32,174 nucleotides of DNA from positions 1 through 32,174 of the IMG/VR virus record IMGVR_UViG_3300030098_005255. One strand, 5' to 3'. A program made the position numbers and the translations under genes. This document shows positions 2,011-28,722 of this stretch, one piece after another (within the stretch, counting starts at the first letter, position 1; every line of letters starts with the position of its first letter). Under the pieces are notes generated by a model. It made no database searches. It was not told the origin of the DNA and saw nothing but the letters and a program-made list of their open reading frames with translations. The stretch is from a virus.

Positions 2011-3072
2011 ATGGCTCTTACAGATCCTTTAGGTTCGAATATATTAATTGGTGGTGTCGGTGGAAGTAGTACTTTAGGTGCTAATGCTGATACTATTGGA
2101 GATCAGTTTGTTCCAGAAGTTTGGGGTCAAGCTGTTTTAGATTCTTTTAATAAAAACACAGTTATGGCAAAACTTGGAACTGACTTGTCTGCTATCGCAC
2201 AGGCACAGGGTGGTGATAAAATTAATCTACCTCATGTTGGAACTCCAATTGTAAAACCTGTAACACAAAATGCAGAAGTTATTACTTTAGATGTTTCAGG
2301 TAGTGATACTGCAACTTCAACAACATTAACAATAGATCAGCATCATGTTGCTCCTATTTGGATACCAGATGCTGTAAAAGCACAGGCTACATATGATTTA
2401 TTTAGCTTATATGCAAGTCAAATGGGTTATGCTATTGCTAGAGCAATTGACAATTATGTTGCTTACTCTATAGTATCTAATCTAGAATCAGTTTTAGGTT
2501 CTGGTGATGGTATTACAAGCACAACAGCAGCTGTTGAAGTAGGCACTTCTTTTACTGAAGCTAATCTTGCATCTTTAATGGGATTAATAGTAGGTGAAAC
2601 AGGCGATACAAATGGTTGGACTTTAGTTTTATCTCCTGTAACTTATGGTGCTTTAGCTAATCTTGGTGGATCTTCATTTGACCAAGGTACAGCAAATGCT
2701 CCTTTAGGTGCTGATTTTGCTAGAACAGGTGCAGTTGGAACATTATTAGGTATGCCTGTTGTAATGTCAAACAATGCTTATATGGATGTTGCTTCAGTTT
2801 CTGCAAATGCTGAAACAGGAACAACTGCATGGACAGGTTTTGACACAGGCTCTAGTGGTGGTGATACTGCTGATGATGATCATCTAATGGGCTTTGCAAT
2901 ACATAAAGATGCTCTTTATTTTGCAATGCAAAAATCTACTGTTCAACAATCTTATCAACATACATATATGCAAGACTTAGTGTCTGCTGATGCATTATAT
3001 GGATGTGCTGTAAGAAATGCTGATTCAGCAGGTGATAGAAAAATCATCGCATTGTATGATTCTTTAGATTAA
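2011..3072 (+). CDS. Major capsid protein
   Basis: A 353-residue coat protein that forms the head shell. Its N-terminus contains an IGDQFVPEVWGQAVLDSF stretch, followed by a region on loading of DNA/ligand-like sequence (INLPHVGTPIVKPV), a pattern seen in many phage coat proteins. A GLIVGETGDTNGWTLVLSP region and a FAIHKDALYFAMQKS segment near the C-terminus resemble the core of HK97-fold coats. It has a strong AAGGAG ribosome binding site and follows the scaffold gene. The exact coat family cannot be assigned by eye. There is no long N-terminal delta domain, consistent with a separate scaffold. Confidence 0.85.
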   Translation: MALTDPLGSNILIGGVGGSSTLGANADTIGDQFVPEVWGQAVLDSFNKNTVMAKLGTDLSAIAQAQGGDKINLPHVGTPIVKPVTQNAEVITLDVSGSDTATSTTLTIDQHHVAPIWIPDAVKAQATYDLFSLYASQMGYAIARAIDNYVAYSIVSNLESVLGSGDGITSTTAAVEVGTSFTEANLASLMGLIVGETGDTNGWTLVLSPVTYGALANLGGSSFDQGTANAPLGADFARTGAVGTLLGMPVVMSNNAYMDVASVSANAETGTTAWTGFDTGSSGGDTADDDHLMGFAIHKDALYFAMQKSTVQQSYQHTYMQDLVSADALYGCAVRNADSAGDRKIIALYDSLD

Positions 3073-3132
3073 TAACATCTAAATAGTTGAGAGGGGGTAG
3101 TAATGCCCCCTCTTGCAAAAAAAAGGATTATT

Positions 3133-3315
3133 ATGTCAGATAAAACATTTATTTATAATGGTAAAAGAAAAGAAAGCTTTGGTGTAAAAAAGACTTTTGA
3201 TGTTAAAGATTTAAATGAAAAAAAATTAAATAGATTAGCAGAAAAAGGTTGGGTTGAAGTTGTAGAAAAGCCAAAGCCAAAAGCTAAATCAAAACCTAAA
3301 CCAAAGAAGAAATAA
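3133..3315 (+). CDS. Small basic protein after the capsid gene
   Basis: A 60-residue protein beginning MSDKTFIYNGKRKESF and ending in a lysine/proline-rich tail of KPKPK repeats. An in-frame ATG at 3103 behind a GAGAGGGGG tract would add ten residues (MPPLAKKRII). The start at 3133 is preferred because an AAGGA sequence lies a few bases upstream of it and the N-terminus looks more natural. The fold may resemble the short Mu gpFI-like or head-stabilising proteins that follow coat genes, but I do not recognise a family. The stop overlaps the start of the lysozyme gene (TAATGA). Function unknown; a head-associated role is inferred from position only. Confidence 0.6.
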   Translation: MSDKTFIYNGKRKESFGVKKTFDVKDLNEKKLNRLAEKGWVEVVEKPKPKAKSKPKPKKK

Positions 3316-3728
3316 TGATACCAGACTTCAAGGCTCTTATAGAAAGAATTGCAGAGCATGAAGGATTTGGTAATAATGGTAAAGTTTATAAATGCTCCGA
3401 AGGTGTAGATACTTTTGGACATGGATTTACCTACATTACAGAAGAAGAATCCTTCTATATTCTTTCTAAAAGAATCCCAAAAAAACATTTAAAATTATTA
3501 GATAGACTTGATTGGTATGCAGATTTACCTCCTAAAGTTCAAGGTGTAATTATAGAAATGACATTTCAATTAGGAACAGCAGGTATGTTAAAATTTAAAA
3601 AAATGATTGCAGCTATGAAAAATAAAGATTGGAAAACTGCATCCAATGAAATGAAAGATAGTCTATGGTATAGACAAACTAAAAATAGATGTGAGAAATT
3701 AGCATCTATTGTAGCAGAACATGGTTAA
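3315..3728 (+). CDS. Endolysin, T4-type lysozyme (GH24)
   Basis: A 137-residue muramidase that would cut peptidoglycan at lysis. It matches the T4 lysozyme family in length and order: catalytic Glu16 (AEHEG), a short beta hairpin with KVYKCSEG, then DTFGHGFT, and a C-terminal SLWYRQTKNRCEKLA segment. By alignment with T4 lysozyme (Glu11, Asp20, Thr26), the Asp20 position is Cys27 and the Thr is Thr33, with the same five-residue gap between them. There is no signal peptide, so release needs a holin. It overlaps the next gene (ATGGTTAATGG), the first of several small membrane proteins. It is placed between capsid and tail genes rather than at the genome end. Confidence 0.9.
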   Translation: MIPDFKALIERIAEHEGFGNNGKVYKCSEGVDTFGHGFTYITEEESFYILSKRIPKKHLKLLDRLDWYADLPPKVQGVIIEMTFQLGTAGMLKFKKMIAAMKNKDWKTASNEMKDSLWYRQTKNRCEKLASIVAEHG

Positions 3729-4039
3729 TGGAAGATTTTATAGGTATTGCAGAAAGATTTGGCTTACCTGTTGTAATGCTATTAGGAATGTCTTATGGTG
3801 GAATACAGCTATTCAAATGGTTAAGTGCAGACCTATTAAGGCAGATACAACAGAATGCTGAAAGAATTGAAAAGATTGTTATTGCACTTATTGACAATTC
3901 TAAAAAAGAACGTGAGCAAAATAGGGAATTACATAAAGAAAATATTGCACTCAATAAGCAACTTTTCGAAAGAATGGATTCCATTGTTGATGTTTTGGTT
4001 AAGCTATCAGGCAATGGTTTAAGGAAAAAAGATAAATGA
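3728..4039 (+). CDS. Holin-like small membrane protein (TM plus coiled coil)
   Basis: 103 residues with one transmembrane segment near the N-terminus (about residues 11-32, FGLPVVMLLGMSYGGIQLFK) followed by a long charged helix likely to form a coiled coil. This architecture is like BhlA/UviB-type phage holins. The gene starts at the stop of the endolysin and overlaps the next membrane protein. The beginning (..I.ERFGLPV) resembles that of the 99-residue protein at 4881 (..I.ELGFPV), suggesting the two are related. A holin role is likely but could belong to any of the neighbouring membrane proteins. Confidence 0.6.
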   Translation: MEDFIGIAERFGLPVVMLLGMSYGGIQLFKWLSADLLRQIQQNAERIEKIVIALIDNSKKEREQNRELHKENIALNKQLFERMDSIVDVLVKLSGNGLRKKDK

Positions 4040-4476
4040 GCCAGGATATAGATAAAATAAAACAGCAAAGAGCAAGGGATATTCGCATAATGCGAGATAA
4101 AGCTGCTGTTAATATTGCTAAATGGGCATTGCCTACCATTATACTACTTTTTGCAGGTTTAGTTGGTTCTATTGTATATATTGAAGATATGTCTGCAATC
4201 GCAATTATATCTGCAGCTACATCATCTACATCAATGGCTTTAATATCAATTTTAAATACAATGACAGGACACAAGGACAAGGAAGATCCGATTGTATCTA
4301 TTATTAAAGGCTATTCTGACCAAAATGCTGCTTTAATTGAATTAGTTATAAAAGAAAAGTCAAAATCACAATCTATTAGGCTTGGTGATAAAGAAGTAAG
4401 TTTAACTGAAGGCTCTACTAATATTCACGTTTCTGACGATGATGTAGTATGGGGTAAGGATAAACCAAAAAAATGA
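4036..4476 (+). CDS. Small membrane protein with two TM helices
   Basis: 146 residues. A basic N-terminal helix (QQRARDIRIMRDK) leads into two hydrophobic segments, about residues 30-49 and 52-73, separated by a short acidic turn (YIEDMS). A soluble, mostly polar C-terminal half ends in KDKPKK. The hairpin of two helices fits a class II holin or an antiholin, though the long tail is unusual. Its start overlaps the upstream gene by four bases (ATGA), and its stop overlaps the next small gene. I do not recognise a family; membership in the lysis cassette is inferred from position and membrane topology. Confidence 0.6.
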   Translation: MSQDIDKIKQQRARDIRIMRDKAAVNIAKWALPTIILLFAGLVGSIVYIEDMSAIAIISAATSSTSMALISILNTMTGHKDKEDPIVSIIKGYSDQNAALIELVIKEKSKSQSIRLGDKEVSLTEGSTNIHVSDDDVVWGKDKPKK

Positions 4477-4595
4477 AAAAATGCTATAAATGTAATATTG
4501 AAATAGATGAAGAAGATTTTATGTGTTGCAATTGTATAGATAGCACAGATGGCAGGAGTCAGCATTTTTGGAATATAAAAGAAGAAGATGAATAA
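4473..4595 (+). CDS. 40-residue zinc-ribbon-like protein
   Basis: A short gene that overlaps both neighbours (ATGA with the upstream stop; its end overlaps the start at 4588). The product begins MKKCYKCNIEIDEED and has a second cysteine group CCNC, giving a CxxC...CCxC pattern that could bind one zinc ion. This is typical of tiny phage zinc-ribbon proteins of unknown role. The tight overlaps on both sides are the main evidence that it is translated. No function can be given. Confidence 0.6.
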   Translation: MKKCYKCNIEIDEEDFMCCNCIDSTDGRSQHFWNIKEEDE

Positions 4596-19361: not shown

Positions 19362-19952
19362 ATGGCTACTTTACTATATGGAAATGGAGACGTTGAAATA
19401 CAAGGCACTAATATAAGAGGAGTTCAAATAGCCTATAAAGGTGCTATTACTATAGATAAAGAATGTGGAGATGAGTTTAGCATAGCAGCCAATAAAAATA
19501 CTATAATTGTATTTCCATTAGGTCAAGGTAGTTTAGATAGATTATTTTCCTATGAGGGTGATTTAAAAATAACATCAGTTATTGCAGTAGATAATAATGC
19601 TGAAAAAGTGCCAACAACAATTAAAAGAGTCATGGACTTCCCTGAACTTATGGGTAAAGCTGAAGATATTACTATAAATAGCGAGGATTTAAGTGCAGGG
19701 TATGTAAAGGGTAGCAAACCACAAAAAACAGCCGTAAAACAGCAATATATAGAGAATTTAAATACAAATAGAATTGATAGTGATTTATATACAAAAGATG
19801 GCAAAAGATATGAAGGTGAATTTCATATTAATCCATCAACTAATATTATTAAGACAGGTGCTAAAGAAACCTTAAATTCTAAAGTAATAGTAAGGAAAAA
19901 CTTTAGAAAAAAAGAAAAACCAACAAGAATTGTTAGAAGGAGTAAATATTAA
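19362..19952 (+). CDS. Tail-associated protein with YEGEFHINP motif
   Basis: 196 residues with an AGGAG site two bases after the tail-tip gene. It begins with a beta domain (MATLLYGNGDVEIQGTNIRG), has a short helix in the middle (TIKRVMDFPELMGKAEDI), and near the end a KDGKRYEGEFHINPSTN segment followed by TGAKETLNSK. Variants of G..Y.G..HIHP....TGA.H occur in many marine phage virion proteins as I recall them. The C-terminus is very basic (RKNFRKKEKPTRIVRRSKY). Probably a tail-tip or fibre-attachment component. Confidence 0.55.
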   Translation: MATLLYGNGDVEIQGTNIRGVQIAYKGAITIDKECGDEFSIAANKNTIIVFPLGQGSLDRLFSYEGDLKITSVIAVDNNAEKVPTTIKRVMDFPELMGKAEDITINSEDLSAGYVKGSKPQKTAVKQQYIENLNTNRIDSDLYTKDGKRYEGEFHINPSTNIIKTGAKETLNSKVIVRKNFRKKEKPTRIVRRSKY

Positions 19953-20857
19953 TGGCATATCAGAACGTAAAAACACCAAGAATATACCTAAATATACCTG
20001 AATATTTAGCATCAACAGGTGTAGAAATAGATCCGATTTTAAGAACATTGCCTGTAAGTAAAACAAATTCTTTAAGTTTTATAACTAATAATCCAAGAAC
20101 ACAGCAGTTAAATACTAATATAACTGATGATTTTATTTCAGATAATAACTATGTTGCAGTATTAAATCATTCTTTAGAAGATATAAATTTTGAAATTAAT
20201 TCAGATGATAATTATATATCAGGAACAGAAATTGTAAATCCTTTAGATGGTAGTTCCCTAAAGGGTTTTAGTGTAATGGATTTTTCTTCAAATATAGTTA
20301 AAAATGTTTGGTTTAACAGAGGTGAAGCACCTTTTACTGATCCACAAAGCATAGATATAGGCTCTATTATGTGTGGATTTTATTATGATTTTCCACATTC
20401 TCCTGATCTTAATTTGACTTTAACGTATTCTTATGGAGGTGTAAAAGAAATTACTACAAGAGGTGGTTCAACTTTAACAAATAGTTTTTATACAAAACCA
20501 CCTTACAGTTTTGAAATTGGAGATGTAGAAACACAGTTAGCAAAGTCAGGTAGAAGAATTTGGGATTTAAGTTTTAGTTTTTTATCATCGGAAAAAGTAT
20601 TTCCTGATAATGCAGGTTTATCTAATGAAAATCCTGATAGCACAAATTTAACATTATTGCAAGATAATACTTTACAAAGAGCAATACACTTAACAAATGG
20701 TGGGCAAATTCCATTTTTATTTCAAAGTGATAATTCAATTACAGAGAATTTTCAAAATCAACTTGCTATATGTAAATTTGACATGAACTCATTTCAGTTT
20801 AATCAAACGGCTTTTAATAAATATACTGTAAAATTAAAAATACGAGAAGTCTGGTAA
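19952..20857 (+). CDS. Putative distal tail / tail-tip protein, last gene of the late operon
   Basis: 301 residues with an AAGGAG site inside the end of the previous gene; stop and start overlap by one base. Beta-rich and Asn/Ser/Thr-rich throughout (NNYVAVLNHSLEDINFEINS, RRIWDLSFSFLSSEKVFPD), with a closing TVKLKIREVW. The segment around NGGQIPFLFQSDNS resembles the end domains of some tail-tip proteins in marine siphophages. No enzyme motif. It is followed by a 15-bp-stem structure that probably ends the late transcript. Confidence 0.5.
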   Translation: MAYQNVKTPRIYLNIPEYLASTGVEIDPILRTLPVSKTNSLSFITNNPRTQQLNTNITDDFISDNNYVAVLNHSLEDINFEINSDDNYISGTEIVNPLDGSSLKGFSVMDFSSNIVKNVWFNRGEAPFTDPQSIDIGSIMCGFYYDFPHSPDLNLTLTYSYGGVKEITTRGGSTLTNSFYTKPPYSFEIGDVETQLAKSGRRIWDLSFSFLSSEKVFPDNAGLSNENPDSTNLTLLQDNTLQRAIHLTNGGQIPFLFQSDNSITENFQNQLAICKFDMNSFQFNQTAFNKYTVKLKIREVW

Positions 20858-20859
20858 TT

Positions 20860-20927
20860 TAACCCCTGGTAGTGTTTTCCTAGAGTGTGGGTGTGCATTC
20901 GGGTCGTGCTGTCATTACTAGGGGTTA
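20860..20927 (+). other. Long closing-stem RNA structure after the late operon
   Basis: Bases 20860-20874 pair with 20913-20927 in a 15-bp stem (two G-U pairs) closing a 38-base interior that contains TTCGGGTCGTGC. It lies two bases after the last late gene and before the early region, but no run of T follows directly, so a simple intrinsic terminator is not convincing. It could be an mRNA 3' end, a processing site or a small structured RNA. Confidence 0.55.
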
Positions 20928-22837: not shown

Positions 22838-22911
22838 GTGGGGGGGCAAGTTCCCTTTCAGGAGTTTACATCCCATGAGGGTGTTTTTAGCCTGTTTCTT
22901 CGCCCCCCTAC
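22838..22911 (+). other. Structured RNA element with G7/C6 closing stem
   Basis: Bases 22838-22847 pair with 22902-22911 in a 10-bp stem made mostly of G-C pairs, striking in an AT-rich genome. Inside, ACATCC (22868-22873) pairs with GGGTGT (22879-22884) around a five-base loop, and TTCC/GGAG can form a further small hairpin. The structure lies between the SSB-like stop and the ATG at 22921, and the next gene has no Shine-Dalgarno in the nine remaining bases. It may be a translation control element, terminator or processing site. Confidence 0.55.
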
Positions 22912-22920
22912 TCTAATATT

Positions 22921-23247: not shown

Positions 23248-23342
23248 TGCATTGGATGGCTTATATAGTAATAGGTATGTGGATAGGAGTTTTTTTCGGT
23301 ATAATAATAGTTGGTTTATTTCAAAAGGAAAACAAAGATTAA
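23247..23342 (+). CDS. 31-residue single-helix membrane protein
   Basis: Starts within the stop of the previous gene (TAATG). The product MHWMAYIVIGMWIGVFFGII, followed by a short charged tail ending KENKD, is essentially one transmembrane segment. Its stop codon (23340-23342) lies inside the 5' arm of the next RNA stem, so ribosomes ending here would disturb that structure. Function unknown. Confidence 0.55.
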   Translation: MHWMAYIVIGMWIGVFFGIIIVGLFQKENKD

Positions 23343-23419
23343 GCAGGGTCGCTCCTTAATGAAGCCTTATGACCTTGATGATAGGTACGAGTCCGTACAT
23401 CGTATAGCACCCTGCTTAA
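23339..23419 (+). other. Structured RNA domain 1 of the methyltransferase leader
   Basis: TTAAGCAGGGT (23339-23349) is a perfect 11-bp match to ACCCTGCTTAA (23409-23419), closing a 59-base interior. Inside, GTAC pairs with GTAC around GAGTCC, extended by GAT/ATC. The interior has a T-loop-like TACGAGTCC but not a tRNA fold. Overlaps the stop codon of the 31-residue gene. Part of a larger folded leader that reaches the methyltransferase start. Confidence 0.6.
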
Positions 23420-23421
23420 AA

Positions 23422-23523
23422 ATTTTTCACAGTTACAGTTCAGGAATCCCCCACTAGGATGGCAAGTTGCTGTAACAGAGAGGTGAAAAATGAGATAGGG
23501 GGAAAGTCGGATTTTCCCCCTAT
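23422..23523 (+). promoter_or_regulatory. Leader domain 2: nested stem, possible pseudoknot, mini-ORF and terminal hairpin
   Basis: A 9-bp stem (23422-23430 with 23483-23491) and a stacked 7-bp stem (23432-23438 with 23470-23476) enclose a 31-base loop with CCCCC at 23448-23452. GGGGG at 23498-23502 can pair either with that loop (pseudoknot) or with CCCCC at 23516-23520 as part of an 11-bp hairpin (23495-23505 with 23513-23523). The two are mutually exclusive. The best Shine-Dalgarno in the leader (GAGG, 23480-23483) serves a two-codon ORF, ATG AGA TAG, at 23490-23498. The layout looks like regulated translation or attenuation of the methyltransferase. Confidence 0.55.
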
Positions 23524-24631
23524 TAAAATGCTTGATTTATTTAGTGGGATAGGTGGTTTTCATTTAGGATTAGAACAAGCAGGATTTAAATTTGATTGGG
23601 TTGGTTTTTCAGATATAGATAAATATGCAAATAAACAATATAAAAAGAGGTTTCCAAATGCAACAGAACTCGGAGATATTACCAATGTTCAGCCAGAAAG
23701 AGATTTGCCAAGTAACATTGAAATCCTTTGTGGAGGATTCCCATGTCAAGCTTTCTCAATTGCTGGAAAAAGGAAGGGATTCGATGATATCAGAGGAACT
23801 TTATTTTTTGAAATCGCACGGATTCTACGACATTTCAGAGATGTTGGCAAACCAATCCCATACTTTATACTCGAAAATGTTAAAGGCTTACTTAACCACG
23901 AAGATGGACGAACATTTGCTACTATATACGGAGTTCTTGCCGACCTTGATTATACCATTGAGTGCCAATTACTTAATACTAGGTGGTTTTTACCCCAAAA
24001 TAGAGAGCGAATATACATTGTCGGACGTTTTAGAGGAGAAAGTCGACCAAAAATATTTCCTATCGCAGAAATCGGTTACAAGGCTGATGAATTACAAGGA
24101 CAATATACAAATACCCTTAAAGCAAGATACGAAGCAATCGGAGATGGCTCGTACATTGTTGAGGGTGAACAGTATGCACAAGAAGGACTCAAACAAATCG
24201 GAACAATAGGTGAAGATTCAGAAGCTACAAGAGTGTATGATCCAAGTGGATGTGCGAGGACTATTAAGAATGGTGGTGGCATGGGTGCGAAAACAGGGTT
24301 ATATCAAGTTAAAGAAGCTACAAAAAAAGGTTATGCAGTAGCAGAGGAAGGTGATTCTATAAATTTATCTGTACCTGATTCTAAAACTAGAAGAGGTAGG
24401 GTTGGAAAAAAAGCTGCACAAACAATAGATACAGGGATGCAACAATATACAATACAAAATGGGATTAGAAGATTAACACCCATAGAATGTGAAAGGTTAC
24501 AGGGTTTTCCAGATGGATGGACAGAAGGACAATCAGATAGTCAGAGATATAAACAATTAGGGAATGCAGTTAGTGTTCCTGTAGTTAAGGCAATATCAGA
24601 AAGGTTAAAAAAAATATGGGTAAAAAAATAA
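23459..24631 (+). CDS. dcm: DNA (cytosine-5) methyltransferase
   Basis: Transfers methyl from SAM to C5 of cytosine in DNA. All main motifs are present in order (numbering from ATG 23459): motif I DLFSGIGGFHLGLEQAG, motif IV GGFPCQAFS with catalytic Cys96, motif VI FILENVKG with Glu139, motif VIII QNRERIYIVG, a target-recognition region of about residues 200-330, and the closing LTPIECERLQGFPDGWT with QLGNAVSVPV. Start uncertain: ATG 23459 adds 23 unusual residues encoded within a folded leader; ATG 23528 (MLDLFSGIGG) gives a typical N-terminus of 367 residues. Neither has a good ribosome binding site. No cognate restriction enzyme is seen, so it probably protects phage DNA. Codons around 23700-24250 look less AT-driven than neighbours (CGA, ATC). 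Confidence 0.92.
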   Translation: MASCCNREVKNEIGGKSDFPPIKMLDLFSGIGGFHLGLEQAGFKFDWVGFSDIDKYANKQYKKRFPNATELGDITNVQPERDLPSNIEILCGGFPCQAFSIAGKRKGFDDIRGTLFFEIARILRHFRDVGKPIPYFILENVKGLLNHEDGRTFATIYGVLADLDYTIECQLLNTRWFLPQNRERIYIVGRFRGESRPKIFPIAEIGYKADELQGQYTNTLKARYEAIGDGSYIVEGEQYAQEGLKQIGTIGEDSEATRVYDPSGCARTIKNGGGMGAKTGLYQVKEATKKGYAVAEEGDSINLSVPDSKTRRGRVGKKAAQTIDTGMQQYTIQNGIRRLTPIECERLQGFPDGWTEGQSDSQRYKQLGNAVSVPVVKAISERLKKIWVKK

Positions 24632-26580: not shown

Positions 26581-26603
26581 AATAATTTTGTAAAAAAGTT
26601 CAA

Positions 26604-26660
26604 AACTACGAGGGCAAAATATTAAAATGCCTGGAACTACGAGCAAAAAATATTAGAATG
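26604..26660. repeat. Two 26-bp direct repeats
   Basis: Both copies begin AACTACGAG and end in AATATTA(A/G)AATG. They differ at four of 26 positions and are spaced with a 31-bp period, close to three helical turns. This is the usual look of paired sites for a dimeric DNA-binding protein, here between the resolvase stop and the promoter. Confidence 0.6.
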
Positions 26661-26822
26661 GGGTGTCCATGTCACATTTTTGACCCCTTTCGACGAATTT
26701 CCGACGTAAAAAATCAATAAAAAAAATCATAATTATTTAAAATATTTATAAAAAAAAATAGCTTTAAAAAGCTATAAAAAAAACTTTACATAATATAAAA
26801 TAAAAAAAATTATTTTTTCCTA

Positions 26823-26850
26823 TTGACATTATAAAAAAAACTATTATATT
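26823..26850 (+). promoter_or_regulatory. Sigma70-like promoter for the GP88 operon
   Basis: TTGACA at 26823-26828 and TATATT at 26845-26850 are separated by 16 bases. The -35 box is consensus and the -10 box differs at two positions. Located about 50 bases upstream of the first gene of the 26900-28141 operon. Confidence 0.65.
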
Positions 26851-26899
26851 TGTTTTAATTAGTAGTATAAATCAATAATTAAAAAAAAGGGAATAAAAA

Positions 26900-27049
26900 A
26901 TGAAGTCATTTAGAATAACTATTATAATTGATAGAGAATATGACGAGACATCAATAGAAGATATGGAACGAGATGCTCAAACAATAATACATGAAGATTG
27001 CGAAGATAATTGTCTTTATATTGAAGATATAGAAGTGGTAGAAAAGTAA
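26900..27049 (+). CDS. 49-residue acidic protein
   Basis: First gene after the promoter, with AAAGGGAAT upstream. Product MKSFRITIIIDREYDETSIE, then a strongly acidic second half (HEDCEDNCLYIEDIEVVEK). A beta-alpha start and acidic surface could suit a DNA mimic or small regulator, but there is no known motif. Leads the operon that carries the GP88 gene. Confidence 0.5.
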   Translation: MKSFRITIIIDREYDETSIEDMERDAQTIIHEDCEDNCLYIEDIEVVEK

Positions 27050-27092
27050 TAAAAATATATTTAAACAATAATAAAAAAGGGAGACTTAAACA

Positions 27093-27887
27093 ATGATTAA
27101 AGTAAATAAATATGATTATAAAAAATACTATAAAGGGAAAAATTTACTGTCTATTAATCAAGATAGCAAAACAAGTAAAGGGACAAAAAAAGGATATTTA
27201 ACAGGGATCTTATATTTAGCCCCTTATAAAATATCAGGTAAAAATATGTGCCCTAAAGCATCTAAAGGATGTTCTCAAGCTTGTTTATATACAGCAGGAA
27301 GAGGAAAATTTACAAACGTCCAGGAAGCAAGAATAAAAAAAACACATTATTTTTTAGAAGACAGAGAGAACTTTATGCTAGATCTTTATAAAAGCATAAT
27401 AAAACTAATTAAAAAAGCTGATAAATTAAATTTACAGCCTGTAGTAAGATTGAATGGAACATCGGATTTAAGATTCGAAAATATAAGGTTTAATTATAAC
27501 GGAAAACATAAAACAATCTTCCAAGCTTTTAAAAATGTTCAATTTTATGATTATACTAAATACGAATTATCATCTGGGAGATGGGATAATTTACCTTCTA
27601 ATTATGATTTAACTTTCTCATTAGCTGAAGACAATTATTTTGAAGCATATGAATTATTACTAGCAGGTAAAAGAATAGCAGCCGTATACCGTGATAATTT
27701 ACCATCTAAACAAATATTCCAGGGTAAAGATCTATCTTTACAATTTCCTGTTATTAATGCTGATGAAACTGATTTAAGATTTAAAGATGGGCAAGGTATC
27801 ATATGTGGGTTAATAGCTAAAGGGGATGCTAAAAAAGATGAAACTGGTTTTGTGTTAGATAGTAATGTAATAAAAATAAATAACTAA
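27093..27887 (+). CDS. GP88-family protein with cysteine motif
   Basis: 264 residues with AAGGGAGAC upstream. The N-terminal KGYLTGILYLAPYKISGKNM, then MCPKASKGCSQACLYTAGRG with Cys53, Cys60 and Cys64, followed by VQEARIKKTHYFLED, is the hallmark of the gene product 88 family known from mycobacteriophages and other phages. The conserved cysteines suggest metal or iron-sulfur binding. The family has no established function as far as I know. A C-terminal RFKDGQGIICGLIAKG segment is also typical. It sits in a separately promoted small operon, so it may be made at a different time than its neighbours. Confidence 0.78.
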   Translation: MIKVNKYDYKKYYKGKNLLSINQDSKTSKGTKKGYLTGILYLAPYKISGKNMCPKASKGCSQACLYTAGRGKFTNVQEARIKKTHYFLEDRENFMLDLYKSIIKLIKKADKLNLQPVVRLNGTSDLRFENIRFNYNGKHKTIFQAFKNVQFYDYTKYELSSGRWDNLPSNYDLTFSLAEDNYFEAYELLLAGKRIAAVYRDNLPSKQIFQGKDLSLQFPVINADETDLRFKDGQGIICGLIAKGDAKKDETGFVLDSNVIKINN

Positions 27888-27901
27888 AAAAAGGGATAAC
27901 A

Positions 27902-28042
27902 ATGAGTAAAATAAAAAACATAGATAATTGGCTAGATAGTCATTTAGAAATTGAAATAATAGGTTTTAATACTAAAAAAAAGAATAGTATTAAAAAAGAA
28001 ATAAAAAAACAAATAATAACAGACTTAAAAAAAAGGGGGTAA
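27902..28042 (+). CDS. 46-residue Lys/Ile-rich protein
   Basis: Follows the GP88 gene with AAAGGGAT upstream. Product MSKIKNIDNWLDSHLEIEII, then a Lys-rich helix ending DLKKRG. No motif. The regular AAAAAGGG ribosome binding sites of this operon support translation. Confidence 0.5.
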   Translation: MSKIKNIDNWLDSHLEIEIIGFNTKKKNSIKKEIKKQIITDLKKRG

Positions 28043-28045
28043 CAT

Positions 28046-28141
28046 ATGGAAGTTTTAACACCAATAATTTTAATAGCTTTATTTATAGCTTTAAAATTGT
28101 TTGGTATGTTTTTACTTGGAGAGCTATTTAATAAAAAGTAA
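28046..28141 (+). CDS. 31-residue single-helix membrane protein
   Basis: AAAGGGGGT lies upstream. The product MEVLTPIILIALFIALKLFG and then MFLLGELFNKK is one transmembrane helix with a short basic end. Last gene before the terminator. Small hydrophobic proteins like this occur in many phages; role unknown. Confidence 0.5.
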   Translation: MEVLTPIILIALFIALKLFGMFLLGELFNKK

Positions 28142-28162
28142 TACTAAGTAACAAACAAAATA

Positions 28163-28198
28163 AAAAGGGATCTAATTTATTTTAGATCCTTTTTTTTA
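28163..28198 (+). terminator. Rho-independent terminator after the GP88 operon
   Basis: GGATCTAA (28168-28175) pairs with TTAGATCC (28182-28189) around a six-base loop, extended by A/T pairs, and a run of eight T follows. Classic intrinsic terminator on the plus strand. Confidence 0.88.
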
Positions 28199-28722
28199 TC
28201 CCTTAATATCTTATCTTATATAAATAATTATAATAGTTAATAAGCTTTAATATATAGCTTAATAACAAGCTTAATTAATAAATCTAATACATAACACTAC
28301 AAAACAATAATATAACTTTAGAACGTGCAATATAAAACAATCTAATATAAAATATATATAGAAGTATATGTAATTATAATAACTATTTGGTTTAAGTGGG
28401 ATATTTCACATGCAAACAAGCTTAATTAAATGTATTTAAAAAAGCTTGGATTCAATGCACAGTTTAAAAAATACTATTAAAAAAATAGCACAAAATACCT
28501 TTAATTTCTGATAATTGATATTATGTAAAGTTAATTTCAAGCATAAAATTATTGAATTTCAAACAACAATTTTTTATATGGGGATGGGGGGAAATAGATA
28601 CCCTCTTTCGGAGGTCACCAAAAGAGAATTTTTCAATTATAAGTGTCTACTTTGCCCAAAATAAAACCATGCACTTAAAATACCATGCACTTTTAAATTA
28701 AATTTGTTTATAAATTAAGTGT
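28199..28722. other. 524-bp AT-rich non-coding region before terS
   Basis: No convincing gene on either strand. It contains four AAGCTT sites at 28242, 28267, 28418 and 28442 (pairs 25 and 24 bp apart), two exact 15-mer copies of AACAAGCTTAATTAA (28264-28278, 28415-28429), an isolated G-rich tract near 28579-28591 followed by a small hairpin, and two tandem ACCATGCACTT motifs with a 15-bp period (28667-28677, 28682-28692). Possible contents: an origin, operators, or part of the packaging site. Confidence 0.5.

Follow-up and report, generated by a model that had tools for sequence, protein, structure and literature searches.

A structured leader ahead of a phage C5 cytosine methyltransferase gene as a candidate split ribosome-binding site

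The leader of the C5 cytosine DNA methyltransferase gene of this phage probably acts in translation, and we tentatively interpret it as a split ribosome-binding site, in which a predicted hairpin would be looped out between a strong but distant Shine–Dalgarno sequence (SD) and the start codon. The best reading of the leader is that it is lineage-specific and that a second stem masks part of its split site. We give this interpretation somewhat less than an even chance, and it is the most likely of those considered; a coupled two-codon minigene and a role in RNA stability come next, while a ligand switch is unlikely. The distant SD and the looped-out hairpin explain the anatomy of the leader more simply than a ligand switch or attenuation would.

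The methyltransferase gene and the folding of its leader

The window, i.e., the whole 32,174-base virus record analysed here, has a 98-nt direct repeat at its termini, which makes it likely that the phage sequence is complete and circularly closed. Proteins of the head, portal, terminase, and tail were identified in it. Viral relatives of the other proteins of the region were sought and none were found, and a search of bacterial genomes with the major head protein, aimed at the host, gave no match. The features discussed below are the following.

23339–23419, + strand: element C, with an 11-bp closing stem (23339–23349/23409–23419) and an inner hairpin inside
23422–23491, + strand: element D, nested outer and inner stems, predicted pairing probabilities 0.83–0.94
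23422–23430/23483–23491, + strand: outer stem of D, 9 bp, UUUUUCAC
23432–23439/23469–23476, + strand: inner stem of D, 8 bp
23448–23452, + strand: CCCCC run near the apex of D that can pair with the G-run of hairpin H, a weak competitor
23480–23485, + strand: strong SD GAGGUG, −10.1 kcal/mol with the anti-SD CACCUC
23490–23498, + strand: two-codon ORF AUG AGA UAG, directly behind GAGGUG at 4-nt spacing
23494–23524, + strand: hairpin H, 14 bp, loop CGG, −18.8 kcal/mol
23528–24631, + strand: C5 cytosine DNA methyltransferase (PF00145, E 5e-78; motifs FSGIGG, GGFPCQ, ENV, and QNRERI)

The relatives of the methyltransferase align from residue 1 or 2 of the protein starting at 23528, and this ATG, considered plausible in an earlier sequence-only reading, is therefore the likely start. 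An in-frame ATG also exists at 23459, but the 23-residue N-terminal extension it would add is present in no relative and was rejected. In at least 21 of the relatives the gene and the upstream frame share exactly 4 nt, which suggests translational coupling. One related phage (L004) encodes two different C5 methyltransferases (944–1939 and 2995–4554) and shares the small membrane and lipoprotein-like genes in a changed order, which points to modular shuffling. In L004 another gene comes right after the small membrane gene, with no leader between them.

Element C begins where the small membrane-protein ORF ends, on the ORF's stop codon. Its 11-bp stem had been described in the sequence-only reading, as had a nested 9+7-bp stem, of which the nesting and the 9-bp outer stem stand while the inner one is 8 bp, and a terminal hairpin given as 11 bp that in fact has 14. 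The same reading found no SD at either start, which is true at local spacing (−4.3 kcal/mol at 23459 and −3.3 kcal/mol at 23528) but misses GAGGUG. The pair probability of H is predicted to be near 1, and in folding predictions for growing transcripts, D is the earlier structure, with H taking over after its 3′ arm is made.

Compared with shuffled sequences, the 190-nt leader has a z of −4.2, with none of 200 shuffles folding equally well, and it ranks fourth among 11,964 windows of 190 nt from the phage and related phages, where terminator-like and post-head-gene hairpins are among the highest-ranking windows. The 90-nt windows of the leader reach just the first to second percentile or so, and the signal therefore stems from three good elements in succession. 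It is this run that is remarkable, the 11-bp stem by itself being unremarkable in 32 kb (about 0.7 expected by our own estimate). By these folding predictions, the leader structure is real.

Homologs of the leader were sought with exact patterns in viral contigs, with blastn in phage records, and in 49 related records, in each case with no result; the methyltransferase relatives occur without such a leader, and those in bacterial genomes showed no leader-like DNA. A 20-nt exact match in a coding gene of unrelated contigs was dropped, since chance alone should yield about nine such near-matches across the entire leader (own estimate). As a single leader sequence is known, it allows neither a covariation test nor a covariance model. 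The absence of the leader from all relatives, and of a sequence homolog from anything searched, would fit a recently inserted or decaying stretch with functionless folds. Such a chance or relic origin is distinctly unlikely in view of the extreme folding rank, the GC content of 43% in a genome of 32% GC, and the orderly arrangement of SD, hairpin, and AUG.

Several other structured sites were noted. Among the 37 genes of the window, the two most structured leaders are those of the methyltransferase, which has the most structured 100-nt leader of all, and of gene 22921, both without a local SD. The latter gene is preceded by a 75-nt stem-closed structure at 22838–22912 (−34 kcal/mol, z about −3.5), which holds a 13-codon ORF (MRVFLACFFAPLL) with its own SD; the end of this ORF lies 4 nt upstream of gene 22921. 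Having a structured start that lacks a local SD but has one farther upstream could be characteristic of this operon, although two cases are not enough to tell. A similar GC stem precedes a small gene in a related phage (L148, 16036–16105, − strand). A 15-bp closing stem lies at 20860–20924 (z −4.2), right after the stop codon of gene 19952–20857. Just 3′ of the major head gene, a strong G-run/C-run hairpin (3072–3125) contains the ATG assigned to ORF 3103; it recurs in eight related phages (L150, L153, L154, L156, L158, L160, L161, and L162) with different stem sequences. In 26600–28720, a possible replication or promoter region, long stretches are AT-rich and sparsely coding; there is a strong hairpin with a T-run near 28165–28200, and the word ACTACGAG occurs repeatedly, near 26606 and 26637.

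Spacing and energetics of the proposed initiation site

GAGGUG sits between the candidate starts 23459 and 23528 and outscores nearly all SDs in this phage, which uses SDs at most starts. On linear RNA it is 42 nt from the methyltransferase AUG, a distance at which it would be unusable. With the predicted H folded in between and looped out, 8 nt before and 3 nt after the hairpin remain, giving an SD–AUG spacing of 11 nt at which a 30S subunit could bind both elements together. Half of the SD is covered by the 3′ arm of the outer stem of D, and this pairing probably dampens initiation; how often D opens could be set by a protein, by translation of the upstream ORF, or by temperature. The calculated cost of opening the SD, the spacer, and the methyltransferase AUG with H intact is 5.1 kcal/mol, and that of clearing the 30S footprint at the two-codon ORF is 26.4 kcal/mol, both for 37 °C and with proteins absent.

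The rarity of the arrangement was assessed in the window and the retrieved loci, over 9,743 ATGs that each open a frame of 60 aa or more. A hairpin of at least 9 bp ends within 8 nt of the ATG in 81 of them, and only the methyltransferase ATG combines an SD of −8 or below with a hairpin of −10 or below at no more than 8 nt. The cut-offs were picked after the case had been seen, and the uniqueness is therefore support and not proof. One other of the 40 most stable hairpins listed has such an SD, but there the hairpin is weak and the ATG internal.

The split site is thus favored by the strength of the distant SD, the 11-nt spacing shared with gene 25 of phage T4, the low opening cost, the outcome of the scan, the most structured leader in a phage that uses SDs, and the start at 23528. 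Against it stand the lack of a homologous leader and hence of covariation, the ideal 4-nt spacing of GAGGUG to the AUG of the two-codon ORF, and an 11-nt gap at the long end of the useful range. Many relatives are apparently coupled without any SD, and the gene may not need one; the post hoc cut-offs of the scan and the assumptions behind the energies count on the same side.

Alternative explanations

The two-codon ORF offers another use for the same SD. Ribosomes would start at 23490, end at 23498 and thereby open the 5′ arm of H, and some would reinitiate at 23528, 29 nt downstream, or else protect the mRNA. The SD stands at 4-nt spacing from this start (−10.1 kcal/mol), and such ORFs are rare: the + strand of the window has just one further SD-preceded two-codon ORF, which lies inside a gene. 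The neighboring SD-less gene 22921 likewise has a structured leader with a short ORF ending just before it, and in the axe-txe operon a two-codon minigene 15 nt before txe raises its translation (PMC8708949). The axe-txe minigene is the closest match for the two-codon ORF, as both consist of an SD-led AUG-NNN-stop shortly upstream of a gene start. It differs in the shorter distance to the next start (15 nt there, 29 nt here), and in the present case a stable hairpin overlaps the minigene stop and the downstream gene lacks a local SD. Initiation at 23490 must, however, unfold H and part of D at a cost of about 26 kcal/mol, and 29 nt is a long gap for reinitiation without a local SD. We consider such a coupled minigene unlikely.

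A combination of the two ideas can also be envisaged: the two-codon ORF and the distant start would share one SD, the choice between them would fall to H, and access would be controlled by D, possibly with the methyltransferase bound to it, so that an RNA fork would tune the modification of the phage DNA. Such a composite switch, which would be unlike the T4 cases, is highly unlikely.

The folds could instead serve RNA stability, processing, or operon boundaries, with C shielding the upstream message at its 3′ end or being a processing site, and with the methyltransferase weakly translated and lacking dedicated control. The position of C on the upstream stop codon is consistent with this, as are the other structures just after stop codons in the same phage (20860–20924 and 22838–22912) and the recurrence across relatives of the hairpin 3′ of the major head gene. 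This explanation leaves unaccounted for both the strong SD and the location of H 3 nt before the AUG, and the + strand lacks a U-tract; we regard it as rather unlikely.

Finally, the leader had been proposed to be a cis-acting switch or attenuator that might sense SAM or the methyltransferase, with two exclusive states arising from the competition of two CCCCC runs for one GGGGG. A cis-acting leader affecting methyltransferase translation is plausible, and the competing pairing is possible, with 6 bp and a duplex energy of −13.3 kcal/mol. H, with its 14 bp, is far stronger, and the nested alternative is about 20 kcal/mol worse, such that a second state would hold only transiently at best and is unlikely at equilibrium. 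The failure to match known riboswitches is borne out by Rfam 15, in which no family was found at gathering thresholds and the best relaxed match was a spurious microRNA (E 0.24); sensing of SAM, or of any metabolite, has no support. No stem on the + strand is directly followed by a U-tract, terminator-like sites being confined to the − strand, and transcription attenuation is therefore unsupported. Searches of the sequence for tRNA and tmRNA gave nothing, and hammerhead and twister ribozymes, considered by eye, were dropped because core residues and Rfam matches are missing. A riboswitch or autoregulatory site for SAM, SAH, or the methyltransferase, toggling between hairpin and pseudoknot, would make use of the complementary C-run in the loop of D and of the masking of half of the SD, and the PF00145 gene product does use SAM. 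With the weak alternative pairing, no Rfam match, and no conserved aptamer in any relative, it is very improbable.

Relation to known split sites and significance

The closest mechanistic match to the proposed split site is found in T4 genes 25 and 38, for which, as far as we have found, split ribosome-binding sites are mainly documented. Folding shortens the spacing from 27 to 11 nt in gene 25 and from 22 to 5 nt in gene 38 (PMC3014915; original sources are references 108 and 109 therein). The methyltransferase leader resembles them in having an SD too distant from the AUG, a hairpin in between, and a lineage-limited occurrence, and it shares with gene 25 the same folded spacing. The gene and the phage are different, the linear gap is 42 nt rather than 22–27 nt, a second stem covers part of the SD, the same SD also belongs to a two-codon ORF, and the present case is known from sequence and prediction. 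In addition, the gene 25 arrangement is conserved in close T-even phages, whereas no second leader was found here. The T4 gene e and I-TevI leaders, whose structures hide the initiation regions (PMC3014915), are similar in that the initiation region is partly paired; the difference is that the masking here costs no more than some 5 kcal/mol and comes with no known alternative promoter.

If the split site is real, it would provide one way for a phage to meter its DNA methyltransferase. A clear case in a phage unrelated to T4 would also suggest that starts of this type are wrongly annotated by gene finders as lacking an SD, and it would supply a simple rule for finding further split sites.
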